Source: an uncultured Methylococcaceae bacterium (GTDB taxonomy: Bacteria > Pseudomonadota > Gammaproteobacteria > Methylococcales > Methylococcaceae). From it: a stretch of 38,291 nucleotides of DNA. Shown in pieces: positions 142 through 15,428 of this stretch. Both the position numbers and the translations under genes were made by a program. Numbering within the stretch: the first letter of the stretch is position 1; the number at the start of each line of letters is the position of its first letter. Location: contig CAIZPP010000118.1 of assembly GCA_903934875.1 (NCBI GenBank), positions 1 to 38,291 of the forward strand, written 5' to 3'. The notes below the pieces were generated by a model. It had not been told where the DNA came from, did no database searches, and worked only from the letters and a program-made list of their open reading frames with translations.

Positions 142-177
142 GAAGTAAAATAACTATTTTTATGATGTCCTTTGCTT

Positions 178-3100
178 TTTCTAAGCTGCCTGTGCGGCAG
201 TGAAGGCGTAGGATGGAGCGTAGGAGCGAGGTTATTCTTTCTAGGCTGCCTGTGCGGCAGTGAAGGGTTCAATTGGTAGGTTCTGTGTCCCGTTTTTTTT
301 CTAAGCTGCCTGTGCGGCAGTGAAGAGGCGGACCTTGCCTAGGCTGCGAAGTGCGCTTTTCTAAGCTGCCTGTGCGGCAGTGAAGATGGTTTGCAGTTCT
401 TGCTTATTCGCCAATCTTTTCTAAGCTGCCTGTGCGGCAGTGAAGCACACATTAGAAGGCTTGCAGGCTTTAATTCAGTTTCTAAGCTGCCTGTGCGGCA
501 GTGAAGATTTTGCTGTTCGACGGAATAGCGACACATATTTTCTAAGCTGCCTGTGCGGCAGTGAAGCGGCGGGCATCATTGATTTGGTCGATTCGTTATT
601 TCTAAGCTGCCTGTGCGGCAGTGAAGGAGCCGCTGGCGGCGCTTTTGGGGGCGTTTTATTTCTAAGCTGCCTGTGCGGCAGTGAAGCTAAGCGCTATCGT
701 TTGCATGAAATATCTCCCTTTCTAAGCTGCCTGTGCGGCAGTGAAGCAGCAGAGAGATGGAAATCGCTTTGTCACCAATTTCTAAGCTGCCTGTGCGGCA
801 GTGAAGCATGACGATGGCGGCTAAATCGTCCAGTACGATTTCTAAGCTGCCTGTGCGGCAGTGAAGCTTGACAAGCATCGGCAACCTAAAAACCGCCTTT
901 TCTAAGCTGCCTGTGCGGCAGTGAAGTCCTATACCTACCAGGGCATTGATATTGTTCATTTCTAAGCTGCCTGTGCGGCAGTGAAGTTGTAACCTGCTGC
1001 ATGGGTGGCTCCGTAGATTTTCTAAGCTGCCTGTGCGGCAGTGAAGACTTCTGTTGGTAATTAGACCTAGTTTCTTCCTTTCTAAGCTGCCTGTGCGGCA
1101 GTGAAGTGTACCGGGCCATTGAGCCGCATATCTGGGGTATTTCTAAGCTGCCTGTGCGGCAGTGAAGTTCGCAAACTAATATATTTTGACACACCAACAT
1201 TTCTAAGCTGCCTGTGCGGCAGTGAAGAACTGGGACCGCTTGCACGTTGTAAACTGGGCTTTTCTAAGCTGCCTGTGCGGCAGTGAAGGATCCATCCAAT
1301 TCAATTCGAGAATATGGTTATTTTCTAAGCTGCCTGTGCGGCAGTGAAGACAGCATCAACATCTTCATCGTCTTCCCATCGTTTCTAAGCTGCCTGTGTG
1401 GCAGTGAAGTTGAACCGCTGGCGGGCTATCAGTCAGGATAAATTTCTAAGCTGCCTGTGCGGCAGTGAAGGAATGGGTCTAGGGCTGTTGCCCCCGGCTT
1501 GCTTTTCTAAGCTGCCTGTGCGGCAGTGAAGAATGGGCGGATTACGTCCGCATCGCCGTTTAGTTTCTAAGCTGCCTGTGCGGCAGTGAAGGTAGAAATC
1601 AAACTGATTACTACCTAGGTTAATTTCTAAGCTGCCTGTGCGGCAGTGAAGCCAATGTAGGATTTATTTCCGCCTGATGTAATTTTCTAAGCTGCCTGTG
1701 CGGCAGTGAAGAGCTGAAGCGGCACGGCGGCTCGGCATCAACGTTTCTAAGCTGCCTGTGCGGCAGTGAAGACTGGCCTCCGTGGTCGGGATGGCGGCAA
1801 TCTTTTTCTAAGCTGCCTGTGCGGCAGTGAAGCTAGCGTTGTCGCGCATAGGCGATGAGGCGACTTTCTAAGCTGCCTGTGCGGCAGTGAAGCGCCGAAC
1901 TCGTCAGCAACAACAGATTGGTCAATTTCTAAGCTGCCTGTGCGGCAGTGAAGGTTGCCGCAGCCGTCAAATCAATGTCCGTCGCTTTCTAAGCTGCCTG
2001 TGCGGCAGTGAAGGTTAAAGGTTTAAGTTGCGTTGTCGGAGTAGCTTTCTAAGCTGCCTGTGCGGCAGTGAAGAAGGTGTCGCGCGGTTTTATGCCGACC
2101 CTCTCTTTCTAAGCTGCCTGTGCGGCAGTGAAGACTTTTTCATCGACATTGTCGCTCTGGTTAACTTTCTAAGCTGCCTGTGCGGCAGTGAAGTTTTCAG
2201 ACCATGTTTAAGGGTGCCTGTGCCCGTTTCTAAGCTGCCTGTGCGGCAGTGAAGCATTTGCGCGTCCATTTTGCAATCTGCGCCCATTTCTAAGCTGCCT
2301 GTGCGGCAGTGAAGCGGCACACTGATGATTGAGCCTAAACACCTCGATTTCTAAGCTGCCTGTGCGGCAGTGAAGCATTTTATGGCACTTGGGACAATTC
2401 ATCGACCTTTCTAAGCTGCCTGTGCGGCAGTGAAGCAAACGCCCAGTGCCTCATGGGTAGCGACTGATTTCTAAGCTGCCTGTGCGGCAGTGAAGCGCGT
2501 GGGATGCGGTGGCCACTAGACTTCTAATTTCTAAGCTGCCTGTGCGGCAGTGAAGGGTGTTTACATTTGAATGCCCGTTCGATGCACTTTCTAAGCTGCC
2601 TGTGCGGCAGTGAAGGAAGATCCGGCCCTATGTCTACCAAATCACCAATTTCTAAGCTGCCTGTGCGGCAGTGAAGCGAGTCGCTTAGATCGGCCGTATT
2701 TTCTTGGCTTTCTAAGCTGCCTGTGCGGCAGTGAAGGCGAAAGAGCGCGGTCTGCATACATTTGTACTTTTCTAAGCTGCCTGTGCGGCAGTGAAGGGCG
2801 GCGTAGCGGCGAATTGATGGACCAATATTTTCTAAGCTGCCTGTGCGGCAGTGAAGCATGCCGAGGCTATTTTCATCAACCCCACTGATTTCTAAGCTGC
2901 CTGTGCGGCAGTGAAGGTTCTCACTGGTCTTGCGGTCCGATTGGCTGATTTCTAAGCTGCCTGTGCGGCAGTGAAGTTGAGGTATCAAGCGTCGTTGATC
3001 CGTTCGGCGTTTCTAAGCTGCCTGTGCGGCAGTGAAGGAACTCGTCTTTCGCCGCTTGGCTGCGTTCACTTTCTAAGCTGCCTGTGCGGCAGTGAAGTAG

Positions 3101-4602
3101 GTATAATTGCTTCCGGCTTGCTTGTCACTTTCTAAGCTGCCTGTGCGGCAGTGAAGGTCAACCACAGGCATTTTGGCATGTTTTCGGCGTTTCTAAGCTG
3201 CCTGTGCGGCAGTGAAGAGATTCAGGACGTTGCTAGGCATAGGTTGTGCTTTTCTAAGCTGCCTGTGCGGCAGTGAAGGGGCATGAGCATTCCGTGGAAC
3301 TGACGAACATTTTCTAAGCTGCCTGTGCGGCAGTGAAGTTGCCCTAAATGCCTCAATCCGCGCAACCATTGTTTCTAAGCTGCCTGTGCGGCAGTGAAGC
3401 CTGCATTGGCGCGGTATTGCAATGCGATGGGTTTCTAAGCTGCCTGTGCGGCAGTGAAGCTGCGCGGCCGCGATGCCGGAGCGACACTGACTTTCTAAGC
3501 TGCCTGTGCGGCAGTGAAGGAAACTTGATTGCTATGCCAACTGTTGAAGCATTTCTAAGCTGCCTGTGCGGCAGTGAAGGACGACTCCCCCTCCGCCTCG
3601 ACTTCCCTCATTTTCTAAGCTGCCTGTGCGGCAGTGAAGGGCTACATCGCCGACGATATGCAGGCATTCCATTTCTAAGCTGCCTGTGCGGCAGTGAAGA
3701 ATCTCAGCCGGGATGCCCCAGGCCGCTTTTGTTTCTAAGCTGCCTGTGCGGCAGTGAAGGTTCACCCGGACACGCTGATTTATCCGGCTCTTTTCTAAGC
3801 TGCCTGTGCGGCAGTGAAGATCGTTTTGCCGTGGTGCGTCCAATGACGTTTTTTCTAAGCTGCCTGTGCGGCAGTGAAGATTACATTCGTCCTCCAAGGT
3901 GCGACCCGGATTTTTCTAAGCTGCCTGTGCGGCAGTGAAGAGCACCTTGGAGCACAAATGTGATGTTTGTATCTTTCTAAGCTGCCTGTGCGGCAGTGAA
4001 GTCGTTTCATCCGCCGCAATCACATTCTCATAATTTCTAAGCTGCCTGTGCGGCAGTGAAGTCGTAGCGCGGGTTGACATCATCCACCCAGCCTTTCTAA
4101 GCTGCCTGTGCGGCAGTGAAGTCGGCAATCTGCTCCTCTGTCAATTCATCTACGTTTCTAAGCTGCCTGTGCGGCAGTGAAGGGAAATGGTGGTGTCCGA
4201 TCGTGGTCCCGAGGTTTCTAAGCTGCATGTGCGGCAGTGAAGTACACATGAGGAACCATGACGGGCCACTACCCTTTCTAAGCTGCCTGTGCGGCAGTGA
4301 AGGCGCCTGCGGTGCATCCCCCTGCCGAGTAGGTTTTCTAAGCTGCCTGTGCGGCAGTGAAGGGCGGATTCTCCCGCTATGCCTACCCGACCGATTTCTA
4401 AGCTGCCTGTGCGGCAGTGAAGGATGAGGGTCTGCCCGTCGCCGCCCATCGCCCTTTCTAAGCTGCCTGTGCGGCAGTGAAGACGTTCAGGCATGGCGGT
4501 CTCCAATTGGGTTTTTTCTAAGCTGCCTGTGCGGCAGTGAAGATTTCACTAGACAGCCCCGCGCCTAGGCGTAGTTTCTAAGCTGCCTGTGCGGCAGTGA
4601 AG
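178..4602 (-). CRISPR. Type I-F CRISPR array, 74 repeats / 73 spacers
   Basis: I count 74 copies of a 28-nt repeat. In crRNA sense (minus strand) it reads CTTCA, stem CTGCC, loop GCACA, stem GGCAG, then 5' handle CTTAGAAA, which is the typical I-F repeat architecture cleaved by Cas6f at the 3' base of the hairpin. Phase shifts show 54 spacers of 32 nt, 18 of 33 nt and one of 31 nt (3098-3128). Repeats look identical except for three that I saw: 238-265 (one change in the handle, near the distal end), about 1383-1410 (loop change) and about 4215-4242 (one stem pair lost). The leader lies at the right end beside cas6f, so the newest spacers should be near 4600 and the oldest near 178. All open frames inside the array are translations of the repeat and are not genes. 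Confidence 0.99.
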
Positions 4603-4733
4603 TAGAGCAATCTACCGACAATAGTCTAATTGTTAAAGAAATTTTGTGCAAATCCGCACTTAGGCCAAAAATTTACAGCCTATTCTAACCAATTGATCCG
4701 TATTGGTTTATTTGGATGCCAAAAAATAAGGGT
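4603..4733 (-). promoter_or_regulatory. CRISPR leader with promoter and possible IHF site
   Basis: This 131-bp AT-rich stretch separates the last repeat from the cas6f stop codon. On the minus strand it carries a -35-like TTGCAC (plus-strand 4646-4651), 17 bp, then a -10-like TAGACT (4623-4628), placing transcription start just before the first repeat. Further upstream, about 85-95 bp from the first repeat, the minus strand reads ATCAATTGGTTA (around 4686-4697), matching the IHF core ATCAANNNNTTR. IHF bending of the leader is known to be needed for spacer integration in type I-F and I-E systems. The function is inferred from position and motifs. Confidence 0.7.
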
Positions 4734-5291
4734 TCAAAACCAAGGCACAGTGGCCGTGGGGCTGAGGCCGTAGGCACTGAACGTACCTTCCACTGGGTGC
4801 TCTTGCACGGGCAAATGCTCAATAAACAAGCGGAATTGCTGACCGGTGCTTTGGCTTTTCAAGACCAAATAAGGCAGGCGCAAGGTTTCCGCCGCACTGT
4901 CGGGTATCGCTTGCCTCGCTTCATCGATATCGACTCCCTTTCTCGCCACCATGCGGCGGCGCAGCCGCTCGGGGTTGCTCTTCGCTTGAACGCGGTGGAC
5001 GATGCGGTGCCCAGTGTGGGACGGCACCGCGCCAACCGTGCCGAGTTCGACATGGTCGCGCATCCCCGCCAGCCAAGCCGAGGCCATAAGCTTTTCGAGG
5101 TCGGCTGTTTGCCCGTGCAGGCGCAAACGCCCACCCAAAGCCGTGCCCGTGACATCGGGAAAACTCACGCCTATGCCCTGCCCGCCCAGCCCGGCCAGTC
5201 CGCGATGCAGCTTGCCGAACAGGGCGTTCATCAACATGGCGGGGGGGAACTCCGGGTCTGGCAACAGGGTAATATCCAGATAGGCGTCCAT
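4734..5291 (-). CDS. cas6f: CRISPR-associated endoribonuclease Cas6f (Csy4)
   Basis: This 185-residue protein is the crRNA-processing nuclease of type I-F, cutting the precursor at the 3' base of each repeat hairpin and staying bound to the 3' hairpin as part of the Csy complex. The start MDAYLDITLLP was chosen because it falls 4 nt after the csy3 stop and puts the catalytic histidine at residue 29 (FGKLH29), the position known in Pseudomonas Csy4. An arginine-rich segment near residues 106-118 (NPERLRRRMVARKG) matches the helix that docks in the major groove of the repeat stem. The C-terminal half carries the family's LPYLVLKSQSTGQQFRLFIEH segment in shortened form here. It is the last gene of the csy operon and sits directly beside the leader, the usual I-F arrangement. 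Confidence 0.97.
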   Translation of the reverse strand: MDAYLDITLLPDPEFPPAMLMNALFGKLHRGLAGLGGQGIGVSFPDVTGTALGGRLRLHGQTADLEKLMASAWLAGMRDHVELGTVGAVPSHTGHRIVHRVQAKSNPERLRRRMVARKGVDIDEARQAIPDSAAETLRLPYLVLKSQSTGQQFRLFIEHLPVQEHPVEGTFSAYGLSPTATVPWF

Positions 5292-5295
5292 GGCT

Positions 5296-6351
5296 TTAGT
5301 CCTTGTCACTTGCGCCGAACACACCGCCGCGCACCAGCGTGGCGATTACATAGTGCTGGTCGCCGACCTTGGCAGGGGGTTTGTCATGCAACACCCAGTT
5401 GTCGAGTAGGTTGTAAAAATCGGCTTTGTGCTTGGGCTGGCGGTAGGCTTTGCCTTGCGAGGTGACGGAGCCGTAAGGTTCGACGGCGATTGGTCCGAGA
5501 TTCGCGCCTTCGTCGTCGGGATACCAAGTGTCGATGGTGCGCAGGGCGTTGCCGATTTTTTGGCTGTGGATGGCGGCCACGTTGGCAACGGTGTAGAGAG
5601 TTTTGCTCTTTTGGCCTTTCTTGTCGCCCTTGTCGAGGATGAGTTCCTGCGAGGGGTAGGCTTCCTGGCCGTCGCCGAGGCGGGCGTAGGCAATCACATC
5701 AAGCAGGACGTAGTCGCTGCCGGACAGCCCCTGTTCAATCACCTTCGCCAAGGCTTGCAGTTTGGCTTCCGCCGGTTGCGGCACGTCGAAGTTGCGCAGC
5801 GAAAAGCTGAGTGCGTCGAAACCCCAGGCCGGACCGGGTTGGCCCTGTGCCAGTGGGCTGACCAGCACTTCGACTTGTTCCGCGCCGACGCGGTTGCGCC
5901 ACAGGAAGCGGCCGCTGGCGAGGTTGACGGCGTAGCGGCTGGCGAGTTCGGCAAAGCCGATTTGCTCGACGTATTGTTTTACCGTGGTTTGCAGCTTTTG
6001 CTGGTAGTCGGCGTTGTTGCAGGCCGACGGCGCACCCGCACCGCCTAGGACGCGCAGCGTGAAGCGGACGCGCAGGGTGTCGGCATCGCTGGGCAGGGTG
6101 GCGACATCGACGGTTTGCAGGTTGGGCTGTTGAATGTCTGCATCCAGCTTGGCGGTGTTGTTTTGGTCTCTATCTTTCAACCGGTTGGAGATGGTGCCGC
6201 GCACGGATTTTTCACGCACGGTCACGGCGGGCCATTGGCTGCCGTGGTCGCGGTCGTCCCAGCTTCCGGCGCTGAACAGCGCGTCGGAGGGGTCGAGCTT
6301 GCGTTCAAAGGCGAGCACGGAGGCGGTTTTCAGTGGTTCGGTTTTAGCCAT
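5296..6351 (-). CDS. csy3: Csy3 (Cas7f), backbone subunit of the Csy complex
   Basis: This 351-residue protein forms the six-subunit backbone that wraps the crRNA spacer in type I-F surveillance complexes. The first residues ([20 protein letters not shown]) and later segments [23 protein letters not shown] and the C-terminal [15 protein letters not shown] are typical of Csy3. The chosen ATG at 6351 has an AAGGA ribosome-binding site about 8 nt upstream; an earlier in-frame ATG at 6408 would add residues with no family resemblance. It is followed after 4 nt by cas6f. Unusually, 239 bp of hairpin-rich sequence separate it from csy2, so it may have its own promoter; a weak TTGAGG-17-TTTAAA pair can be seen upstream on the minus strand. 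Confidence 0.96.
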
Positions 6352-6590
6352 AGCGGTTTTCCTTAGGGTGTGTGTATTGTTTAAATTTAAATGGTCATCA
6401 TCCCTCAATGCTGTTGAATCAAGTCGTCATTCCTTAATGGACCGCCGGAACCTAGGCTACAGGGGTATCCTAGGCGCGTGCCATCCATGTAATCTGGATT
6501 CCGGCAATCCCTGCCGGAATGACGGGGGAAATCTTAATTAAACAGCATTGCCCTCATCCCCGGCCCTTCTCCCGGCGGGAGAAGGGAGGC
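6352..6590. repeat. Intergenic hairpin cluster between csy2 and csy3
   Basis: There is no gene here. Two clear inverted repeats are visible: ATTCCGGCA/TGCCGGAAT with a 5-nt loop (6498-6520), a common REP-type intergenic unit, and CCCTTCTCCC/GGGAGAAGGG with a 3-nt loop (6564-6586), starting 5 bp from the csy2 stop codon. A pair of CCTAGG boxes brackets about 6451-6475. The hairpins could stabilise the csy1-csy2 mRNA 3' end or attenuate transcription into csy3. Neither has a T-run on the minus strand that would make it a classic intrinsic terminator. Confidence 0.6.
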
Positions 6591-7619
6591 TCAAAGCGTC
6601 TCGGCATAGGCGTTGACGCAGCGGTATATGCCGGTGGCGGTGTCGGCCTCGGTGCGCCAGAGCAGGGCTTGCAGGCTGTCAATGCGGTGCGGGCTGACCC
6701 ATTCGCCTAGCGAGTACAGGCTTTCGACGAAGCGGAACGGGGTGGCATTGTCGCGGGCATTGGCAACTTGGCCCGGTTCGTAGAGGTCGGAAATGCCGGC
6801 ATAGCCGATAGGCAGGGGGACCAGCCAACCGGGGCGTTTGCGGATGGTCCAGCCGGATTTGTCGGTTGTCGATTCTGCAACGGAGTCACCCACGTCATCG
6901 TACATGTCTTCTTTTTGTTCGGCATCCGGCACTTCGGGGGTCTGTGGCGGCGGCTCGTGGTGCAGGCTGCACAGGTCGAGCAGGGCATCCAACGCGTGGG
7001 CTTCGCCGTTTTCCTTGCGCAGTTCCAGCAGCCGAGCGGCGAGGAAGTCTTCCCGTTGCACCAAGGCGAAACCGGGCAGTAATTGGCGGCGCAACTTGCG
7101 GAATTGAGCGCGCCTGTCTTCGGCGGCTGAGGCGACCGTCAGGCATTGGGCTTCAAAACGCTTGCCTTGGCGTCTAGGCAGGATGCTACCACCGGCCAGC
7201 CTCATGCCTTGAACTGCATGGTGCGCGGCCGCGGCAAAATCGCGGCAGTCGTCTTCGTTGAGGTAGTCGCGGATACCGATTAATAAACTAATTTCCATGT
7301 GGGCGCGACCCTCTTCGACCAGCGCCGAGGGTTTGTCCTCAAACTTTTTCCACCCGGCGTAAACCGGGTTGCGGGTCAGGCAAAAGACTTTATGGGCGCG
7401 TTTGTTGGGGTGGGAAACCTGCGGATCGAACTGGTGGCAGACGATGCCCACACCGGTAAAACGCTGCCCCCATGATTCTGCCAAACGACGTTCCAGCGCA
7501 TGGGCAAAGCCGGTGAAGGCCGTCGGCGAGGGAAAACCCCAACTCAGCGGGCCGGTGATGGTGTTGGCGTTTTGCACTTGCAACCTGGGCAAAAATAAAA
7601 CGGCGTTTAACTCAGTCAT
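6591..7619 (-). CDS. csy2: Csy2 (Cas5f), 5'-handle binding subunit
   Basis: This 342-residue protein is the Cas5-family subunit of the type I-F Csy complex. Together with Csy1 it binds the 8-nt crRNA 5' handle. The start MTELNAVLFLPRLQVQNANT was chosen because it resembles other Csy2 N-termini (NALLxLPRLQVQNANAIS) and overlaps the csy1 stop; a longer upstream frame would be unrelated sequence read inside csy1. Family segments include GPLSWGFPSPTAFTGFAHAL near residues 24-43 and the C-terminal stretch ending near ALLWRTEADTATGIYRC. It overlaps csy1 by 8 nt, which suggests translational coupling. Confidence 0.95.
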   Translation of the reverse strand: MTELNAVLFLPRLQVQNANTITGPLSWGFPSPTAFTGFAHALERRLAESWGQRFTGVGIVCHQFDPQVSHPNKRAHKVFCLTRNPVYAGWKKFEDKPSALVEEGRAHMEISLLIGIRDYLNEDDCRDFAAAAHHAVQGMRLAGGSILPRRQGKRFEAQCLTVASAAEDRRAQFRKLRRQLLPGFALVQREDFLAARLLELRKENGEAHALDALLDLCSLHHEPPPQTPEVPDAEQKEDMYDDVGDSVAESTTDKSGWTIRKRPGWLVPLPIGYAGISDLYEPGQVANARDNATPFRFVESLYSLGEWVSPHRIDSLQALLWRTEADTATGIYRCVNAYAETL

Positions 7620-8928
7620 GGCCGATCTCCAAGCGGAACATGCCCAGTTCCCGTTCGATGGCCTTGGCCCAGTGGGCGGCAGCAGATTGGTCAAAGTGCA
7701 TCTTTTTCGTGTCAAGGCGGCTGTTGAGCCAGATGCCAAAGCTCCGGGCCACCTCGTCCTGCCAGTCGCCACGACGATACTGCGCGGCAAATTCAGGGTC
7801 GGCTTCGGCACGGCCAGGGTCCAGCCAGCATTGCTCGGCGGGGTTGAGTTGGCAATCCGGGTCTTTAGTCCAGCCGGGGGCCAATTCGTGCAGCGTCGCC
7901 GCGTAGTTCAATAGTTCGTCACACAACTGGCCCAGCCATTCGTCGCGTTCGTCGCGGATGTCTATCGTGCTGTTGCGTTTTTGCACGGCCAATAAAAATT
8001 TTTTCAGCTTATCGGTCAGGCTGCGAACATTGGAGCGGGAACCAAAAATACCGCCGAATTTGCCGCTGAACACGCTTTTCACACACAGTGGCGCACGGAT
8101 GGCTGCGGATTGCCAGCTTGGCGGCAGCGAGGCGAGCAGGTAGTTTTCGCCGTAGCGTTCGCTGTTAAGCTGGCTGATGTTTTGCGGTTTTGTGCCGCCA
8201 AACTTTTGCAGTGCGAAATTGGGGTAGTCGCGGTAGCCTTCGCGGTGTGGCTTGCCTTCCCGTCGGGCATCCCGTGCCGCTTTAGCGGAATCGGAGAAGC
8301 GACTTTCGCGGATGCTGTGCCAGACGGCACCGGCTAGGCTGGAAGGGAACAGCGGCGCCAACAAGTGGTAGCCTCCGCTTTCCAACGGCCAGTAAACTTG
8401 CTTGGCGAGGGTGTGGGAGGCTGGCTGGCCTTTGGGTTCGACTAAAGTTGCAAAAGCATCCATCCATGCCATTGAGGTTTCGGCATCGTCGGAAAATGCC
8501 GCCGCCAGTGCGGGGTCTTTGGCAATGGCACGTTGCAGCAGCGTTTGGCCTTCCACTTCAAGGCGTAAGAATTTATAGACATCAAGCGCGGCGGCATTGC
8601 CTACGACATCCGGTTTTTTCCCATCGCCCAGTGTGTGTGTGCCAATGGCGCACTCGCCTGCTTGTGGGTTGCCCGCAGAGTACAAGTTGGAACCTCGCGC
8701 ATCAGGGTGTGTGTATTTCAAGGCATGGCTGACTTGCTGTATTTGACCGACTCGCCGCGCCGCATCGGCGATCCATGTTTGGGGATGATAGGCATCTAGG
8801 TGCTTTTGGCGTTTCTCGTCTTCGCCCTCCTTAAGTTCGTCTAGCTTGGTTTGCAGGCGTTCTTGCAGGAAAGCTTGGATGGTGCTTTGAATCGGCCCGT
8901 GTAGGGCGGGTGGCAGGGTTTGACTCAC
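7612..8928 (-). CDS. csy1: Csy1 (Cas8f), large subunit / PAM recognition
   Basis: This 438-residue protein is the large subunit of the I-F surveillance complex. It contacts the CC PAM on target DNA and caps the crRNA 5' end with Csy2. It begins with GTG at 8928, supported by an AAAGGAG ribosome-binding site 9 nt upstream; the protein starts MSQTLPPALHGPIQSTIQAF. Recognisable Csy1 segments are SHALKYTHPDARGSNLY, ASHTLAKQVYWPL and FGGTKPQNISQLNSERYGE. It is the first gene of the csy operon. Its upstream region (8929-9269) is unusually long and holds a possible structured RNA and the protospacer of the mini-CRISPR guide, so expression is probably autoregulated. Confidence 0.95.
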   Translation of the reverse strand: MSQTLPPALHGPIQSTIQAFLQERLQTKLDELKEGEDEKRQKHLDAYHPQTWIADAARRVGQIQQVSHALKYTHPDARGSNLYSAGNPQAGECAIGTHTLGDGKKPDVVGNAAALDVYKFLRLEVEGQTLLQRAIAKDPALAAAFSDDAETSMAWMDAFATLVEPKGQPASHTLAKQVYWPLESGGYHLLAPLFPSSLAGAVWHSIRESRFSDSAKAARDARREGKPHREGYRDYPNFALQKFGGTKPQNISQLNSERYGENYLLASLPPSWQSAAIRAPLCVKSVFSGKFGGIFGSRSNVRSLTDKLKKFLLAVQKRNSTIDIRDERDEWLGQLCDELLNYAATLHELAPGWTKDPDCQLNPAEQCWLDPGRAEADPEFAAQYRRGDWQDEVARSFGIWLNSRLDTKKMHFDQSAAAHWAKAIERELGMFRLEIGHD

Positions 8929-8983
8929 GGACAGAGGCTCCTTTCATGATGAGTGTGTCGGGCTGGGGAATATGCGCTATAAT

Positions 8984-9165
8984 GACAACCCGAAGCAATA
9001 AGCCTCGGGGCGGCTTGCATTACACTCTTCTGGCGTGATGCTTGCCGAACACCGTTGCACCCTCCTTATCGCCATAACCGGGCGATTGGGTCTCGCTAGG
9101 CACGAGAGTTTGTTGGTTTTGAGGGCCAAGGTTGTTGGTAGCAGCCTTGGCCTTCGACTTTTGTG
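8984..9165 (+). ncRNA. Candidate structured small RNA, unknown family
   Basis: A perfect -10 box TATAAT lies at 8978-8983 on the plus strand, with no good -35. Downstream come consecutive hairpins: AAGCC/GGCTT (about 8996-9018), GCATTACAC/GCGTGATGC (about 9016-9041), ATCGCC/GGCGAT (about 9068-9085), TCTCG/CGAGA (about 9090-9107) and GGCCAAGG/CCTTGGCC (9124-9152), the last followed by TTCGACTTTT, a weak terminator. CGAAG (8991-8995) can pair with CTTCG (9152-9156) to close the whole fold. I could not match it to 6S, 4.5S, tmRNA or RNase P RNA. The complementary strand can fold similarly, so it might instead be a structured 5' leader of csy1 mRNA. Confidence 0.35.
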
Positions 9166-9191
9166 CATCATACAAGCAGGCAAAAAATTTA

Positions 9192-9231
9192 TCAATACCT
9201 AGCTACGCTAAATTTCACTAATGAAAAAATA
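9192..9231 (-). promoter_or_regulatory. Candidate csy promoter overlapping the CreR-like protospacer
   Basis: On the plus strand, CC (9198-9199) is followed by a 32-nt protospacer (9200-9231) that partly matches the mini-array spacer at 9298-9329. Matches are at positions 1-5, 7-11, 13, 14, 16, 17, 19-22, 26 and 31. Read on the minus strand, TTAGTG (plus 9216-9221), 18 bp, and TATTGA (9192-9197) form a weak -35/-10 pair that would send transcripts into csy1, leaving a leader of about 255 nt. Csy complex bound here would cover the promoter. The PAM and match are seen; the promoter assignment and repression are inferred. Confidence 0.65.
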
Positions 9232-9269
9232 ATTCCAGCCCATATAGTCTCTATTTAATGCGATAATGT

Positions 9270-9383
9270 CAAGTCTACCGAATAGGTAGCTTAGAAATAG
9301 CTGCGCTACATCTCGCTAAATGACTGTTTTTCCACTGCCGCACAGGCAGATTATCAAAAAACGGGGCACGAAGCCCCGTTTAT
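9270..9383 (+). ncRNA. creR: CreR-like cas-regulating guide RNA (one-spacer mini-CRISPR)
   Basis: Two degenerate copies of the array repeat lie in crRNA sense on the plus strand, 9270-9297 (20/28 identical) and 9330-9357 (23/28), separated by a 32-nt spacer; the 60-nt period equals that of the main array. Repeat 1 has stem CTACC/GGTAG in place of CTGCC/GGCAG, a compensated pair change, and keeps the full handle CTTAGAAA. Repeat 2 keeps stem and loop CTGCC-GCACA-GGCAG exactly, but its handle is degenerate. These are the parts a single mature crRNA needs. An extended -10 (TG-C-GATAAT, 9259-9267) would start transcription at about 9273-9275, at the base of the repeat 1 stem. A terminator follows directly. 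CreR guides that repress cas promoters by partial complementarity are known in other CRISPR systems; assignment here is by structure and target match. Confidence 0.88.
9355..9383 (+). terminator. Rho-independent terminator of the mini-CRISPR
   Basis: ACGGGGC (9361-9367) pairs perfectly with GCCCCGT (9373-9379) across the loop ACGAA. It is preceded by a run of A and followed by TTATCCTTTATT. It begins immediately after the second degenerate repeat, so the mini-array is a self-contained short transcript. Confidence 0.75.
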
Positions 9384-9400
9384 CCTTTATTCACAAACCA

Positions 9401-9527
9401 TTAGGACTTACGCAAAGCTCAGTTCGTGCTGAGCCTGTCGAAGCATGAAGGGGCTTTGCAGGTGCCGTTCACCCTTCGATAAGCTCAGGGCGAACGGTGT
9501 TGGCAGACGTTTTTACGTAAGTCCTAA
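9401..9527. mobile_element. Small MITE-like element, 127 bp
   Basis: Perfect 12-bp terminal inverted repeats TTAGGACTTACG (9401-9412) and CGTAAGTCCTAA (9516-9527) flank a non-coding core. The core carries two inverted copies of a widespread intergenic motif, one containing CTGAGCCTGTCGAAGCATGA and the other TTCGATAAGCTCAGGGCGAA. CCA occurs directly before and after the element and may be a 3-bp target duplication. It sits between the mini-CRISPR terminator and the vapC stop codon (3 bp away). There is no transposase. Confidence 0.6.
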
Positions 9528-9530
9528 CCA

Positions 9531-9926
9531 TCAAACCAGCCACACCCGCACACCCGGCGTGATGCCTGCCTCCCTCGCCGTTTTGCAAAACCCCCGGTCA
9601 AAGGTGTGCATCACGGCGGAGCCGCAGGCCGCCAGATGGAGCGCATCGGCAAAATCCGCGCCTTTGGCATACCAGTCTAGCGCCCGCGCCACGGCCTGTT
9701 CGTCTTCGATCACCGCATTTGCTGTTTGGAGCAACAACGCGAAAAAGGCATGGATACGCTCACGAGGCAGCTTGTAGCTGAAGCGCAGAACCCATTCAGT
9801 TTCCAGCAGCACGGTGCGGGTAATCAGGGCACTATGGGTTTTGAGCAAGTTTTCGGCAATATCCGCCTGCACGGGTGGATCGTTGGTCACTAGCCGCACG
9901 AGCATGTTGGTGTCCAGCGCGATCAT
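9531..9926 (-). CDS. vapC: PIN-domain ribonuclease toxin, VapC-like
   Basis: This 131-residue PIN-domain protein is probably an endoribonuclease toxin that cleaves RNA when free of its antitoxin. PIN acidic residues are visible in order: MIALDTNMLVRL (D5), LLETEWVLRF (E), GADFADALHLAA (D) and TFDRGF (D). The start at 9926 was chosen because its ATG overlaps the antitoxin TGA by 4 nt and the resulting N-terminus matches VapC proteins. The pair is inserted between the csy operon and cas2-3, all on the minus strand. The RNA target cannot be told from sequence. Confidence 0.88.
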   Translation of the reverse strand: MIALDTNMLVRLVTNDPPVQADIAENLLKTHSALITRTVLLETEWVLRFSYKLPRERIHAFFALLLQTANAVIEDEQAVARALDWYAKGADFADALHLAACGSAVMHTFDRGFCKTAREAGITPGVRVWLV

Positions 9927-10198
9927 CGACTGCGCTGCTCGGATTCTTCCCAATCCGTGCCATATTCAACGGGTTTGCAAAGCGCTTCAATCGGCACAGG
10001 AGAGGCATTGGATTGGAGAAAACCGCGCAGTTCTTCCAGCCTGCGTGTCTTCACTGCCGATTTCGCTTTCAACAACACACCGGACTCGGTCGTTTCGATG
10101 ATGAGTTCATGGCCGCTTTCCCAATGCAGCTGGTCGCGGATGATTTTGGGGATAACCACTTGCCCTTTGCTGGATAGGGTTGCGGTGGTGATGGTCAT
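9923..10198 (-). CDS. AbrB/MazE-type antitoxin
   Basis: This 91-residue protein has an N-terminal SpoVT-AbrB DNA-binding domain (TATLSSKGQVVIPKIIRDQL, about residues 5-24, then GHELIIE and GVLLKAK). A C-terminal tail rich in charged residues probably wraps the toxin. AbrB-type antitoxins normally bind their own promoter with the toxin and repress it. The start MTITTATLSSKG at 10198 is set by the domain start; the longer frame to 10312 adds unrelated residues. The stop overlaps the toxin start (ATGA). It lies 196 bp downstream of the cas2-3 stop; the gap contains a -10-like TATAGT on the minus strand (plus 10220-10225), so it may have its own promoter. Confidence 0.85.
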   Translation of the reverse strand: MTITTATLSSKGQVVIPKIIRDQLHWESGHELIIETTESGVLLKAKSAVKTRRLEELRGFLQSNASPVPIEALCKPVEYGTDWEESEQRSR

Positions 10199-10394
10199 AG
10201 CTGACTCCGATTTAGTAAGACTATAAGTAAGCCATTCTAACCCGCTTTTAGCAAATCGGCTATCCTGCCAATTTGTCCGGCTTCCATGGCCGGAATGATG
10301 GGCTACAATCATGGTTTTGGCTCAAACTGAAAACGTGCTTCGCAAGGGAAAATGTAGCATTGTGCCTGTGTTCTCTGAATATAGCATCCAAAAT

Positions 10395-13300
10395 TTAACC
10401 GCGACGGGTAAAACCCAGTGCCGGGTGGTATTGCCATTCCTCATTGCCTTCCCGTCCCGGCAGATCGACCATGCCGAAACGCATGGTGCAGTCTTTAAGT
10501 TCCATTTCCCGGTTTTCCGCCAAGGCTTCCAGTGCGGCTAGGTAGTCCGGTTCGCCAAAAAAGCTGATGCGAGGGCCGGACTCAAGTTGTTCTGCATTGA
10601 TCGTGTGGAATAATTGGCTCTGGTCAGTGGGCGGTTCGCCCGGTTCTTCCAGCCGGTAAAACTGAATCTTATCATGCTCGTCCGGCAGCAACACAAAGCG
10701 TCGATGGCCTTCTTTATCGTCACGGAACGGCTGGTTGCGCTGCAATTCGCCGCAGAGGTGGGCGCGGGTGCTCCACCATAAATAGACGGCGTTTTGCTTC
10801 TCGCCTTTTTGCATCAAGTCGCGCAGACGGTCATGCTCCAAATCGGCTAAGTTGCGCTCAGGCTGCAATTCGGGACGTTCGCAAATGCGGGCCGAGGCAT
10901 CAATCCTTGCCAGTTGCTCAGAGGTTAGCAGTTCGGTCAACACATGGGTTTTCAGCAGGAATTCTTTGCTTTCAAAACCCGGATGGCAAAACGCCGGTTT
11001 GCCCGGATTTTCCAGATGGCTCAGATTGGTGTCCAGCAAGCATAAGTTAGGGTGGGTGCATGCGCCTGTGCGATGGCGACGGAGGCGGCCCGCCAGTTGA
11101 ATGATGGAGCGCACCGAGGAGGGTTCGACGATAGCCCAATCGTAATCGTGGTCGCGTCCGACCTCCGCCACGGCGGTCGCCAGCACAATGACGATATGTT
11201 CGGGTTCCGGGCTGCTATCCAACAAGCTGCGCAGCTGCGGCTTATCGAACAATGCCTGCGGATTTTGGTTTTCCGATTTGCGGTTGAGCAGACGATCTAG
11301 GCAGTTTTCGATGCCCGAACGCACCAATAATGGATGCCGTGAATGATAAATACATAAGTGGATATGATGCCCAGGGCTGGCCCCTTGCGTATAAAGTACC
11401 TTGGCGGTTTCCACCAGGGTGTCAATGTGCGCCATGCGGATTAAACCAATACTGACGCGCTTGCCGCTATGCGGGTCTGGTTCGCTGCGGTGCAGTGCGT
11501 GAAAGGTGTGTGCCTGTTCCCGCAAGTGCTTGGCGAATTCTGCGCACAGCACGGCTCGCGGCTGGCCGGTAGCGATGGGCAGGGCGCGGATTTCGGCACG
11601 GCGGCGCATTTCTTGGGCCGCAAGCTTGGCGATGCGTTTAGTGACAAACGCACCGTGTTCTTGCGCGAAACTGAGTGGGGTGGCATGGTCGCTGGTGGCG
11701 GGGGCTTCAAATTCGTCAAACCACGCGCAACAAACATTGACCGGCTGACCGGGAATGCCCCGGTTGGCCTGATAAACGCGACGGCCTGCCCAATAAGCCT
11801 CAAACAAACCTTCCACCAGCGCGGGCGGCAAAGTGGCCGAAGACAGCAACACCCGGCTACCTAACATTCCAGCCCAATTGACTAAGCGGGACAGGGCGGG
11901 TAAATCGGCTATATCGAAGTCGTCGGGTTCGTCCAACACCAAGTCGGAGGTCATCAACCGTAGCATGGGTGCAATTTGATGGCCACCACGACCGCTTTCG
12001 CAGGCGGGCATTAAGTGGTCGATGGTGCAGGCAAGAATGGGAGCATTAAGCAGTTTTTGCGCATTGATGTTGCGCTTGAATTTTTGCCGGTCTTTTGGGT
12101 CGCCTTCCAACCAACGGTTTAACGGGCCGTCCTCCAGGCTGCCGTCAAAATGCACATAGCCCTGATCCTCCGGCAACAGTTCGGCGCTGGACTCGGCACC
12201 CGCTTGAGCCTGTTTGCTTTCCTCCTGTTTCCGCATGTCGTGCAAGTCACGAATAGACGCCCCGCCGCCTACCATCACTGCCAACACGTCAGAGCCTAGC
12301 CCCAACTCGTCCCGGTATACATCCCCGGTCTGCAAAGTCAGGGTGCGCAGCCCTAGGGCAATGGTGAAACGCGCCCCTAGCTGCGGGTCGGCCAAGGCAT
12401 AGAGAATCCGCCCATTGGCGATGGTTTTGCCAAAGCCGGTTGATGCCATATTCACGCCGAAGAATCCTTGCGCTTCCGATTTGAGGCGCACACTTTCCGC
12501 CAAGTCAAAGGCGCGGTCTTGCCAGCGAAAGCGCTTGTCTTTACTTCGTTGGCGCAAGCCTTTGTAGCGGGCGATGCGTGACAGTTGTTCAGCCAGATTG
12601 GGCAAACTGCGGACGACTTTTCGGGCGTTGACTTCCACGCCGATTAAATGCTCGTCCAAACGCTGCTTTGGCTGTTTTTTGTCATCGACCCAGTGCGAAT
12701 TGGCATACAGCGGCTTGCTGGCTTTAACCGCCGCATCGCCGTAACAATCATGGCTAGGCTGGCTCGAATAGTAATGATCGGCCAACATCAGCGCCAAACG
12801 AGACAGGTGGACGACATAGGGGTTGTCGAGCAAGCCCGAGCCACTGTTAGCAAGGCTTGGATGCTTTAAGACAGCCTGTGCCGTCCGGCTGGCGCGTCGC
12901 CGCCATTCGCGGCTGTCGAGTGGCAGGGCTTTGAATGTCCAACAGGCCGCTTTGTCCGCTTGATCTTTGCCTTTTTTGCTTTTATCTTCCGCTTCTTGCT
13001 TGCCTTGGCAAGCGCCGCACCAATTGGCGGAGATATTGGCGGGCAAATTTTCAAGAACACCTTTGTTTAGTTCAGCTCCCCACTGCGTAGGCATCCGGTG
13101 ATGGCTGACAATCAGCCAGCCGACCAGTTGCGCCAACGGCGGCATGGGTTTGGGGCGGGCATTGAATGGACTGCGAGGGGTTGGTTCTTGCATACCATCG
13201 CGGGCCAACCGGGCGGTGATTTGATCCATCAAACTGTCCGGCTGCTCCGCCAATGTTGCCAAGCGCCCCAACCACCCCTCGTCGCTTTTATCCTCGCTGA

Positions 13301-13778
13301 CAAATGCCTCAAACAGCCGCAACGACACCCATTCATGCCGGTAGGCATCGGCAATGGGTTTCTTGCTGGTCAATTTGTTTTGAAACGCCAGATTAGCTTT
13401 GCCGACATCATGAAACAACGCTGCCAGAGCCGCCAACAACCTGATAATTTCAGCCGTATGCCAGTCATTTTCATCGCCGGCCCGCAGCACATCCCGCTCG
13501 GTGATGTTAGTAGGGGTGGCACCCCGCTCGTTGAACTGGCGGGCATCGCCGACGACCCACAGCAGTTCGCTGTAGTCTTTGCCGCGTATCCAGTGGCAGG
13601 CGACGGCGGTGTTCTTGCGGGCGGTCTTCCGCAACAGGCGGTGCAGGGTTTCCAGCCCTTGTTGGGTGATGGCGGTCTGCCAAGTGCGGTCGCCGCGCCG
13701 TTCGGCAAACTGGTCGAGGATGCGCCGCGACTCGGTGAGGGCGTTTTTACTGCATTGGGAAATCAGCAACACATTCAT
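10395..13778 (-). CDS. cas3: Cas2-3 fusion, type I-F nuclease-helicase
   Basis: This 1127-residue protein is the type I-F fusion of Cas2 and Cas3. Residues 1 to about 95 form the Cas2-like domain (MNVLLISQCSKNALTESRRI), which joins Cas1 for spacer integration. An HD nuclease domain follows (LFHDVGKAN with H123 and D124; later HEW and SHHRMP). The superfamily 2 helicase has motif I at about 444-452 (STGFGKT), DEPD at about 616-619, an SAT motif (LLSSATLPP), then ATAVAEVGRD and QLAGRLRRHR as motifs V and VI. Together these degrade DNA marked by the Csy complex. The ATG overlaps the cas1 TGA by 4 nt. The length is normal for the family and all key residues are present. Confidence 0.97.
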   Translation of the reverse strand: MNVLLISQCSKNALTESRRILDQFAERRGDRTWQTAITQQGLETLHRLLRKTARKNTAVACHWIRGKDYSELLWVVGDARQFNERGATPTNITERDVLRAGDENDWHTAEIIRLLAALAALFHDVGKANLAFQNKLTSKKPIADAYRHEWVSLRLFEAFVSEDKSDEGWLGRLATLAEQPDSLMDQITARLARDGMQEPTPRSPFNARPKPMPPLAQLVGWLIVSHHRMPTQWGAELNKGVLENLPANISANWCGACQGKQEAEDKSKKGKDQADKAACWTFKALPLDSREWRRRASRTAQAVLKHPSLANSGSGLLDNPYVVHLSRLALMLADHYYSSQPSHDCYGDAAVKASKPLYANSHWVDDKKQPKQRLDEHLIGVEVNARKVVRSLPNLAEQLSRIARYKGLRQRSKDKRFRWQDRAFDLAESVRLKSEAQGFFGVNMASTGFGKTIANGRILYALADPQLGARFTIALGLRTLTLQTGDVYRDELGLGSDVLAVMVGGGASIRDLHDMRKQEESKQAQAGAESSAELLPEDQGYVHFDGSLEDGPLNRWLEGDPKDRQKFKRNINAQKLLNAPILACTIDHLMPACESGRGGHQIAPMLRLMTSDLVLDEPDDFDIADLPALSRLVNWAGMLGSRVLLSSATLPPALVEGLFEAYWAGRRVYQANRGIPGQPVNVCCAWFDEFEAPATSDHATPLSFAQEHGAFVTKRIAKLAAQEMRRRAEIRALPIATGQPRAVLCAEFAKHLREQAHTFHALHRSEPDPHSGKRVSIGLIRMAHIDTLVETAKVLYTQGASPGHHIHLCIYHSRHPLLVRSGIENCLDRLLNRKSENQNPQALFDKPQLRSLLDSSPEPEHIVIVLATAVAEVGRDHDYDWAIVEPSSVRSIIQLAGRLRRHRTGACTHPNLCLLDTNLSHLENPGKPAFCHPGFESKEFLLKTHVLTELLTSEQLARIDASARICERPELQPERNLADLEHDRLRDLMQKGEKQNAVYLWWSTRAHLCGELQRNQPFRDDKEGHRRFVLLPDEHDKIQFYRLEEPGEPPTDQSQLFHTINAEQLESGPRISFFGEPDYLAALEALAENREMELKDCTMRFGMVDLPGREGNEEWQYHPALGFTRRG

Positions 13779-14752
13779 GCGGCCTTCTCTCCCAGTTCAA
13801 GCGCTATCTCTTTCAATGTGTCGATCATGAAATCCAGCGCTTCAGTCTGGGCGAGGGCATCAATGCAGGCTTGGCGGAAGGTCTGTTCGTCATCGCCGCG
13901 CATCGCCGAGATGAAGGCTTGCGGCAGGATGACGGCATCCTTGACCAAATCGGCGGCATCGAACACCAAGCCACCACGCCGGGTCTTGCCGTGCAGCACG
14001 GCCAAACCATGCGGCAAACCTAAAACCCAAGTGGCCGTCGCGCCTAAACCGTAGGCCAGATAATTGCCGTGGTCGAGAAAGCGGTTGGCCGGATCGGTGC
14101 CAGTGCCGTGCTTGGCCCGTGTGAAGTCGCCATATTTGACCGCCTGTGCAGCCAATTTGAACAGTTTTTTGGTCAGGCGGGCTTCCTCCGCCAGCAAGGT
14201 CTGATTGTCTGGCATTGATTCCAGCGTCTGCTTGGATTCGCCCAGCGCGGCCTGTAAGCGTGCCTTTTCCACGGCAAAACCGCCTTCGGCCAGTGTGCGG
14301 TTGCCAGACCACTGCTGCTCAATGCGCTCCAAACGTGTGCGCTGAATCATTTTCGCCGCTTGCAAACGCAATTCATCTCTGAACCAGAACCGCACCCAGT
14401 TTTGCAGGTATTCGGTGGGGCGGTATTCGCTCTGCGGGCTGAACCATGCGATTTCCACATCCATTTCATTGACACTGTAAAGCGGGGTGCCTCCGCCGCC
14501 GCAAAACCCCACCATCACTCCGGCCTTGCCCAGTTCCCGCATTGCCTGCTGGGTTATCGAAGTGCCCGTGCCTAGCATGACAGTCGTGGTATTGGCGATG
14601 GGGATGTTCCAGTAAAGCGAGCGCCTGCCCTCGTTGGTGACGAATTCGACCCGCCCGCCATTGACTAGCAGCCGGCAACGTTCAAGATAGTAAATATTGG
14701 CCCGCTTGGAGTGCAGGATGGTTTTAAGGTCGGATGGGGTAAAGTTGTCCAT
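13775..14752 (-). CDS. cas1: Cas1 integrase, type I-F
   Basis: This 325-residue protein is the CRISPR spacer integrase. The start MDNFTPSDLKTILHSKRANI was chosen by family resemblance; a longer frame to 14974 reads back into the neighbouring gene. With this start the metal-binding residues fall at E190, H254 (VLHGKTRRG) and D268 (VFDAADLVKD), the numbering I recall for Pseudomonas Cas1. The segment NRFLDHGNYLAYGL is a type I-F signature. It is translationally coupled to cas2-3. It lies only 61 nt after the dipeptidase gene on the same strand, with no clear promoter or strong ribosome-binding site in the gap, so read-through from the upstream operon is possible. Confidence 0.97.
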   Translation of the reverse strand: MDNFTPSDLKTILHSKRANIYYLERCRLLVNGGRVEFVTNEGRRSLYWNIPIANTTTVMLGTGTSITQQAMRELGKAGVMVGFCGGGGTPLYSVNEMDVEIAWFSPQSEYRPTEYLQNWVRFWFRDELRLQAAKMIQRTRLERIEQQWSGNRTLAEGGFAVEKARLQAALGESKQTLESMPDNQTLLAEEARLTKKLFKLAAQAVKYGDFTRAKHGTGTDPANRFLDHGNYLAYGLGATATWVLGLPHGLAVLHGKTRRGGLVFDAADLVKDAVILPQAFISAMRGDDEQTFRQACIDALAQTEALDFMIDTLKEIALELGEKAA

Positions 14753-14813
14753 GTTTGTTTGACGGGTGGGCAGAAGTTCAAGCTGAGGTGGCCTAAGGCG
14801 ATTTCCGAAAATG

Positions 14814-15428
14814 CTATGGCATAATTTCCGAGAAATCCAAATTAAGGATGCCATACTCTTGCCAGCAGTAGCAATCGAAATGCCACCACTCACGCGGGTG
14901 GACGGTAAACCGTTCCGCCTCCATCGCCTGCCGCAGCAAATCACGCATGGACCGCGCTTGCGCCGTGCCGCCATGGTAATCCGGGTAGGCTTTCTCGTTC
15001 ATTTCGTCGAATGCGCTGGGCATGGCGACTTCCTGCCCAGTGTCTAGATGGTATAGGCTTAGATCGATTGTGCAGCCACGGTTGTGGCGTGAGCCTTGGC
15101 CAGGGTTGGCGACGAACAGGCGCTGGTCTCCGCTGACCGCGTCCCAAAACAGTTTGGTGACCGACCAAGGTCTGTAGCCGTCGAATAGCAGCAAGCCGAG
15201 CCCTAGCGGTCGCAACCGGGCATGTGCGCGCAACAACGCTTCTGCCGCTGGTTTTTGCAGGAAAACCCGTGCCTCACGGTAAACCGGCCTGCCGATAAAG
15301 TTATTAGCCGTGGCGTAGCGCACGTCTAGGCGCGGGCCACCGTCCAAGGAAGTTATTTCCACCAGTTCCGGCGGGCGGAAGGGGCCGGGTTCCACTGGCG
15401 GTCCGTCATCTGCCGCAGTTTTTGTCAA
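14814..15428 (-). CDS. ddpX: D-Ala-D-Ala dipeptidase (VanX/DdpX family)
   Basis: This 204-residue zinc peptidase belongs to the M15D family, which hydrolyses D-alanyl-D-alanine. The catalytic set is visible: the SxHxxGxxxD motif ([10 protein letters not shown] with H115 and D122), E180 and H183 in EWWHFDC, and the conserved arginine in FDGYRPWS (R86). There is no signal peptide, suggesting a cytoplasmic role in recycling peptidoglycan dipeptide rather than vancomycin resistance, because no vanHA genes are nearby. Its ATG overlaps the stop of the hybrid kinase gene by 4 nt, so the two are co-translated. Confidence 0.92.

Follow-up and report, generated by a model that had tools for sequence, protein, structure and literature searches.

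A divergent mini-CRISPR beside csy1 in a type I-F locus of a probable methanotroph relative, probably the guide gene of a CreTA module

Stand-alone mini-arrays whose spacers are partly complementary to cas8-side promoters are said to have been described by Shmakov et al. in 2023, with one I-F1 mini-array reportedly tested as a regulatory guide. Cas-regulating RNAs (CreR) are described as a class in the parts of PMC12737573 and PMC12948488 available to us, and the former has them generally without a coupled toxin. Type I-F CreTA modules are placed by the available part of PMC10097628 between cas3 and csy1 in three Acinetobacter strains (WCHA45, LoGeW2-3 and ANC3789), where creA is divergent from a conserved 33-bp mini-ORF led by a Shine-Dalgarno (SD) sequence. 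According to the same text, the creT genes of WCHA45 and LoGeW2-3 are toxic and that of ANC3789 did no harm in the test host, in which only the creA of WCHA45 could be made functional; this CreA represses creT via Csy, with Cas1 and Cas3 dispensable. The toxicity of WCHA45 creT is reported there to require the SD and a start-codon hairpin (pairs 1-15, 2-14, 3-13 and 4-12), with loop nucleotides 5-9 proposed to pair with 23S rRNA, and synonymous changes that abolish toxicity are given at codons 2, 3 and 5 only. The paper also mentions a dozen homologues with the mini-ORF near related csy1 genes, and its methods cite 19 more modules, among which the lineage studied here may be included. In the CreTA of Haloarcula hispanica, an archaeal type I-B system (PMC8501985, likewise available in part), a one-psiR creA encodes a CRISPR-effector-dependent antitoxin, and the mini-ORF has an efficient start.

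The window analysed here, meaning the whole stretch of 38,291 nucleotides, carries a type I-F CRISPR-Cas locus identified by Pfam matches, with cas1, cas2-3, a PIN/MazE-like pair, csy1, csy2, csy3 and csy4. A mini-array lies on the strand opposite to csy1, in the stretch that separates csy1 from the PIN gene; its parts are listed in Table 1 together with those of the csy1-facing leader.

Table 1. Features of the mini-array, its target and the csy1 leader (positions of the window)
Feature	Position	Strand	Remarks
Main I-F CRISPR array	178..4602	-	crRNA strand is minus
csy2, csy3, csy4 (cas6f) ORFs	4734..7811	-	Pfam
csy1 (cas8f)	7612..8928	-	PF09611, E 4e-134; GTG start with SD
Hairpin with weak U tail, 3' of mini-ORF	8989..9009	-	weak terminator or creT 3' cap
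creT candidate, 33-bp mini-ORF	9020..9052	-	GTG TTC GGC AAG CAT CAC GCC AGA AGA GTG TAA
Strong SD of creT candidate	9059..9068	-	TAAGGAGGGT
Leader hairpin 3	9068..9086	-	ATCGCC...GGCGAT; immediately 5' of SD
Leader hairpin 2	9091..9108	-	CTCTCGTGCCTAGCGAGA; L016 copy differs by one base
Leader hairpin 1	9124..9152	-	GGCCAAGG...CCTTGGCC
-10 box of targeted promoter	9167..9172	-	TATGAT; 17-nt promoter spacer
-35 box of targeted promoter	9190..9195	-	TTGATA; begins 2 nt from PAM
Guide target (protospacer)	9200..9231	+	5' CC PAM at 9198-9199 (ACC)
Extended -10 proposed for creA	9259..9267	+	TGCGATAAT; directly before psiR1
psiR1, degenerate I-F repeat	9270..9297	+	20/28 against array repeat CTTCACTGCCGCACAGGCAGCTTAGAAA; 5' handle CTTAGAAA
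Predicted mature CreA RNA, 60 nt	9290..9349	+	placed after WCHA45 CreA handles (PMC10097628, available part)
psiS, guide/spacer	9298..9329	+	32 nt
psiR2, degenerate I-F repeat	9330..9357	+	23/28 against array repeat CTTCACTGCCGCACAGGCAGCTTAGAAA; eroded 3' end
Terminator-like hairpin of creA	9359..9381	+	hairpin, with psiR2 upstream of it

The initial annotation had pointed to two degenerate repeats 60 nt apart around a 32-nt spacer, on the plus strand and divergent from csy1, and our comparison bears this out. At exact 60-nt spacing, psiR1 and psiR2 together match the array repeat at 43 of 56 positions, compared with at most 29 on the opposite strand and 27-30 in 20 dinucleotide shuffles; outside positions 150-5200 of the window, the remaining 28-mers of both strands all stay at or below 18/28. 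The five-base-pair stem is intact (5/5) in both repeats, and the change in psiR1 is compensatory (CTACC/GGTAG as against CTGCC/GGCAG in the array). The element has the make-up described for creA in I-F CreTA, in which a short guide is enclosed by two degenerate repeats that are cas-linked and form hairpins. An upstream extended -10 had also been called; the motif is present, and the identical 9-mer stands at the same place before psiR1 in locus L009 of the same genus, although a simple sigma-70 scan of the plus strand lists ATGAAA-16-TATAGT at 9221-9248 and not this extended -10. The terminator claimed just downstream corresponds to the hairpin behind psiR2; read on the minus strand, this hairpin also precedes a run of T and may insulate csy1 from upstream genes. 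If a transcript were cut in the manner of Csy4, a 60-nt RNA would result that begins with CTTAGAAA and consists of an 8-nt 5' handle, the spacer and a 20-nt 3' handle, in agreement with the ends given in the initial annotation.

In type I guides, every sixth position is flipped out of pairing. Scored over its first 20 nucleotides without positions 6, 12 and 18, the spacer matches the PAM-flanked target at 16 of 17 positions, and no shuffled spacer does equally well or better (0 of 3000, and 0 of 5000 in a separate run). The mismatches fall at positions 6, 12, 15, 18, 23-25, 27-30 and 32, so that 20 of the 32 spacer positions match overall. Within the 5.4-Mb genome, a search with the PAM and the first 17 nucleotides, allowing up to two mismatches, returned only this target and the spacer itself, and no further site. 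The targeted promoter (TTGATA-17-TATGAT) points toward csy1, whose start lies 268 nt from the PAM with a weak hairpin in between, and no second promoter-like site directed at csy1 is listed by the simple sigma-70 scan in 8900-9420. The mini-array does mimic an I-F repeat, as would a phage-derived solitary-repeat RNA anti-CRISPR (Racr), and a mini-array might equally be aimed at other DNA; both readings, however, are hardly conceivable here and we reject them, given that a Racr consists of one lone repeat carried by a virus or prophage, whereas we find two repeats and a spacer inside a cas locus, and that within the genome the spacer nearly matches nothing but the promoter region next to it. 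Past position 18, the spacer (9316-9323, CTAAATGA) again resembles the target (9218-9224, CTAATGA) with a shift of one nucleotide, as if the spacer had once been copied from the promoter region.

The leader between the targeted promoter and csy1 is structured (z-score -2.87) and contains the SD-led mini-ORF, which, like the target, was absent from the initial annotation. The target is PAM-flanked, partly complementary to its guide and adjacent to the promoter of a downstream SD-led mini-ORF that resembles a known creT, the arrangement described for I-F CreTA. The LoGeW2-3 mini-ORF, read from its region as ATG TTT AGC ACA CAT TTA GTT AGA AGG GTC TAG, is likewise 33 bp long and shares with that of the window (locus L008) 6 of 10 residues when the start is counted (M, F, H, R, R and V) and 20 of 33 nucleotides, the latter reached by 14 of 5000 leader shuffles. 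All five pairs of a start-codon stem are possible in both. Of 20000 leader shuffles, 191 contained a 33-bp ORF with an SD of at least 5 and 7 contained one with an SD of at least 7, while an SD of at least 5, a 33-bp ORF and the full stem came together in three, and a 33-bp ORF at 6/10 residues occurred in one. Indeed, the mini-ORF is the sole ORF in the whole window, on both strands, that combines an SD of at least 7, a length of 33 bp and the full stem. We therefore consider that the mini-array is probably creA of a type I-F CreTA (type VIII toxin-antitoxin) guarding a csy1-side creT, a reading drawn from sequence comparison.

The likeness to the Acinetobacter modules extends to the location in the cas3-csy1 gap, two psiR around a psiS, a CC-flanked partial target and a divergent SD-led 33-bp mini-ORF downstream of that target; with LoGeW2-3 in particular, the window shares a possible stem across the start codon as well as F (codon 2), H (codon 5) and R-R (codons 8-9). 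There are differences as well. The target lies upstream of the -35 box in the window and downstream of the promoter in WCHA45; psiS measures 32 nt here, 20 nt in WCHA45 and 31 nt in LoGeW2-3; the mini-ORF starts with GTG and has AGA AGA where LoGeW2-3 has AGA AGG; the host is probably a methanotroph relative; and the cas3-csy1 gap also holds the PIN/MazE-like pair. The start-codon hairpin is absent from the minimum-energy fold of the leader and of a 37-nt mini-ORF piece and folds in a 20-nt piece only, whereas that of LoGeW2-3 forms in its 37-nt piece as well. The loop reads UCGGC in the window and UUAGC in WCHA45, and since it differs, the 23S pairing proposed for WCHA45 is not kept as such. 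Several points count against the CreTA assignment: the hairpin lies outside the minimum-energy fold, the loop is unlike that of WCHA45, the target sits on the other side of the promoter than in WCHA45, no more than 20 of the 32 spacer positions match overall, and the ANC3789 homologue was non-toxic.

Among related leaders, nucleotide identity to the LoGeW2-3 mini-ORF is 21/33 in L016 (0 of 400 shuffles), 19/33 in L018 (3 of 400) and 19/33 in L064 (12 of 400), although L033 also reaches 19/33 (32 of 400) despite having no comparable mini-ORF, so that an identity of 19/33 can arise without one. No nucleotide identity to LoGeW2-3 above chance was found in L011, L019, L030 or L061; L019 and L030 have an SD, a short ORF and 4/5 stem pairs, and L061 has 2/5 stem pairs. 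Six leaders, once aligned, differed too much to yield an RNA model of use in searches, with L030 out of register at the start codon.

Codons 8-9 are AGA AGA in the window and L016, AGA AGG in LoGeW2-3 and TTA TTA in L011, a locus of the same family with a Csy1 60% identical to that of the window. Of the 400 Arg codons in 12 ORFs of the window, 16 are AGA, and of the 45 Leu codons in the csy1 of L011, 0 are TTA. Because AGAAGR is common in the leaders (in any frame, it occurs in 12 of 20 as against 3.72 expected, with several of the 12 cases inside csy1 or another ORF), the comparison of this codon pair is limited to in-frame pairs of SD-led mini-ORFs. A strong SD and two consecutive AGA codons in the mini-ORF are shared with the Haloarcula hispanica CreTA, where the pair follows right after the start and not at codons 8-9 (PMC8501985, available part). 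In WCHA45, the codon pair 8-9 is unlikely to act, since the synonymous changes reported to abolish toxicity are confined to codons 2, 3 and 5 in the available part of PMC10097628. Although it has TTA TTA in place of AGA AGA, the L011 leader conserves with the window both the SD and the GTGTTCGGCA..CAT core, and its mini-ORF has no stop of its own, the frame continuing into csy1. Hairpins after the mini-ORF occur in L011 and L016 too. This frame running into csy1, these hairpins and the exchanged codon pairs would suit a regulatory leader peptide, in which a mini-ORF with tandem rare codons and a hairpin attenuates csy1-4 alongside the guide and no toxin is made; but the Acinetobacter homologues act as toxic RNAs in the available part of PMC10097628, and we regard an attenuator as quite improbable.

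To see how the mini-array compares with other loci, csy1 loci were gathered through Csy1 or PF09611 searches and from plasmid records (8 of 17 plasmid records were taken in), and 50 loci among those listed were scanned for two I-F-like repeats within 1.5 kb upstream of csy1. Genomes G494 and G638 match PF09611 and gave no locus, csy1 lies at the contig end in L005 and L055, L004 repeats L009, and alternative pairs in L062 and L066 as well as a one-base-shifted pair in L009 were left out. First-pass thresholds for the pair were 38 (37 loci), 36 (5 loci) and 34 (8 plasmid loci). The two-repeat layout that the initial annotation had suggested seeking upstream of csy1 in related genomes does recur: at a threshold of 36, a csy1-side mini-array stands on the divergent strand in 21 of the 50 loci listed and on the csy1 strand in none, with a pair in 0 of 200 shuffled regions. 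At uniform thresholds of 38, 36 and 34, divergent pairs number 19, 21 and 21 of the 50 loci listed, the csy1 strand yields none each time, and shuffled regions with a pair amount to 0, 0 and 2 of 200. L014 has one psiR1-like unit and no pair.

Twenty mini-arrays entered the target test; the twenty-first, L041, seen at threshold 36, stands outside the 20-locus counts (its target scores 14/17, p 0.0105). The best CC-flanked spacer match lies on the mini-array's own strand in 20 of 20, each reached by at most 18 of 3000 shuffles (that is, better than at least 99.4%), the weakest targets being those of L062 (12/17, 6 of 3000 shuffles) and L066 (12/16, 18 of 3000). Spacers vary among loci and each tracks its own target, with a mean score of 0.89 in the own region and 0.50 in the regions of other loci, where 4 of the 380 comparisons come up to the lowest score that a spacer has in its own region. 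Mismatches are found in 0/20 at each of positions 1-5, in 1/20 at each of positions 7-11, in 0/20 at position 13, 8/20 at 14, 4/20 at 15, 2/18 at each of 16 and 17, 9/18 at 19 and 5/12 at 20; these low rates at scored positions are partly chosen by the scoring, for which the shuffles allow. At the unscored positions 6 (16/20), 12 (14/20) and 18 (14/18), the mismatch rate is near three quarters, as free drift gives. The -35 box of the best promoter lies within -3 to +2 of the PAM in 11 of 20 loci, the window among them (or in 12 of 20, depending on a tie in L009), as against 0.99 expected from shuffles. The degenerate state of both repeats might have suggested a decayed stand-alone CRISPR array, a remnant without function; we reject this reading as practically excluded, for the spacer-target pairs in all 20 mini-arrays tested contradict it, as do the compensatory stem changes and the divergent layout in so many of the loci listed.

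The initial annotation had taken the mini-array for a CreR-type guide, and much of this holds: the locus has the marks of a self-contained crRNA-like guide, with its own target, a PAM, the -35 geometry and the same layout in other loci, and it resembles CreR in that a mini-CRISPR guide has limited complementarity to a cas-side promoter. If the guide were CreR only, it would repress the csy1-4 operon, and the 270-nt leader would be a long 5' UTR with no toxin. Such a layout is seen in L009 (same genus), L010, L037, L065 and L066, in which the PAM and the beginning of csy1 are 56-77 nt apart, the start codon being picked by its SD for L009, L010 and L037 and taken from the annotation for L065 and L066. 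The single csy1-ward promoter in the region scanned, the description of CreR as a class and the one published creT homologue of three that was not deleterious (PMC12737573, PMC12948488 and PMC10097628, available parts) also speak for it. However, the window differs from CreR in having a creT-like RNA between promoter and csy1, with a strong SD and a resemblance to published creT, and SD and start are well conserved between the window and L011. CreR being generally without a coupled toxin, and the first feature behind the targeted promoter being a creT-like candidate rather than csy1, CreA of a CreTA fits better than a stand-alone CreR, and we judge a guide that acts on csy1-4 only to be unlikely.

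Under the CreTA reading, a short RNA would start near psiR1, Csy4 would cut it to the crRNA-like guide and the Csy complex would load this guide. Held by the CC PAM and by pairing that is broken into segments (1-5, 7-11 and 13-17), Csy would then park at 9198-9231, where, beside the -35 box, it would exclude RNA polymerase from the csy1-facing promoter; we propose that the target is not cleaved because spacer-target pairing is too incomplete. The transcript held off would be creT, an RNA with the SD-led mini-ORF, a possible start-codon hairpin and the tandem rare AGA, with csy1-4 further downstream. Once Csy is lost or inhibited, creT would be made and would poison translation, and by this proposal the cell would be addicted to its Csy complex. 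Read-through past the hairpin at 8989-9009 could let the same guide site also tune csy1-4; we infer that this is a likely extra, since no other csy1-ward promoter is listed in the region and only a weak terminator stands before csy1. Because that terminator is weak, the leader may also simply belong to the csy1 mRNA; and since csy1 comes straight after the target in several loci with a mini-array, acting as CreR may be the basic role.

Modules of this kind have already been described in Acinetobacter; what direct sequence comparison adds is their extension to a probable methanotroph relative. If the CreTA reading is true, the cell would be bound to retain its CRISPR system. Among the I-F loci we looked at, mini-arrays divergent from csy1 turn up often, and their recurring geometry, a CC PAM beside the -35 box in about half and 5-nt pairing segments broken at positions 6, 12 and 18, offers an easy rule for finding such elements, which array finders may overlook, and renders testable whether CRISPR self-regulation and CRISPR addiction convert into one another. 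We raise, tentatively and with some doubt, the further idea that a single device can pass between CreR and CreTA: a divergent mini-CRISPR with its PAM right beside the -35 box of the csy1-side promoter, where the csy1 leader acquires or loses a toxic RNA. In the window, one Csy-CreA binding event would then gate both the toxin and the csy operon, and CreT would be a hybrid that joins a start-codon hairpin (the Acinetobacter mode) to a rare-codon pair at codons 8-9 swapped between lineages, as in the tRNA-sequestering archaeal CreT. A partial search of the literature found no description of a rare-codon swap or of a CreR/CreTA switch at this site, and we claim no priority.

Several minor observations concern the surroundings. 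The PIN-domain toxin and MazE-like antitoxin pair (9531-10312, minus strand) lies between cas2-3 and the mini-array, and in Vitreoscilla (L061) a VapC-family gene is likewise found upstream of csy1. An inverted-repeat element (9401-9527), with the ends TTAGGACTTACG and CGTAAGTCCTAA, separates the creA terminator from the PIN gene. An Rfam scan of 4600-16000 gave only two sub-threshold matches, CRISPR-DR4 on psiR1 and the sRNA AaHKsRNA41 overlapping the inverted-repeat element, neither of which names the module. Behind the targeted promoter of L033 (G448) and before csy1, a longer ORF begins ATGATGAACAAAAAG and could encode a protein under mini-array control. Genome G006, of one genus with the window genome, holds two I-F csy1 loci (L009 and L010), and a separate csy1-side mini-array with a separate target accompanies each.
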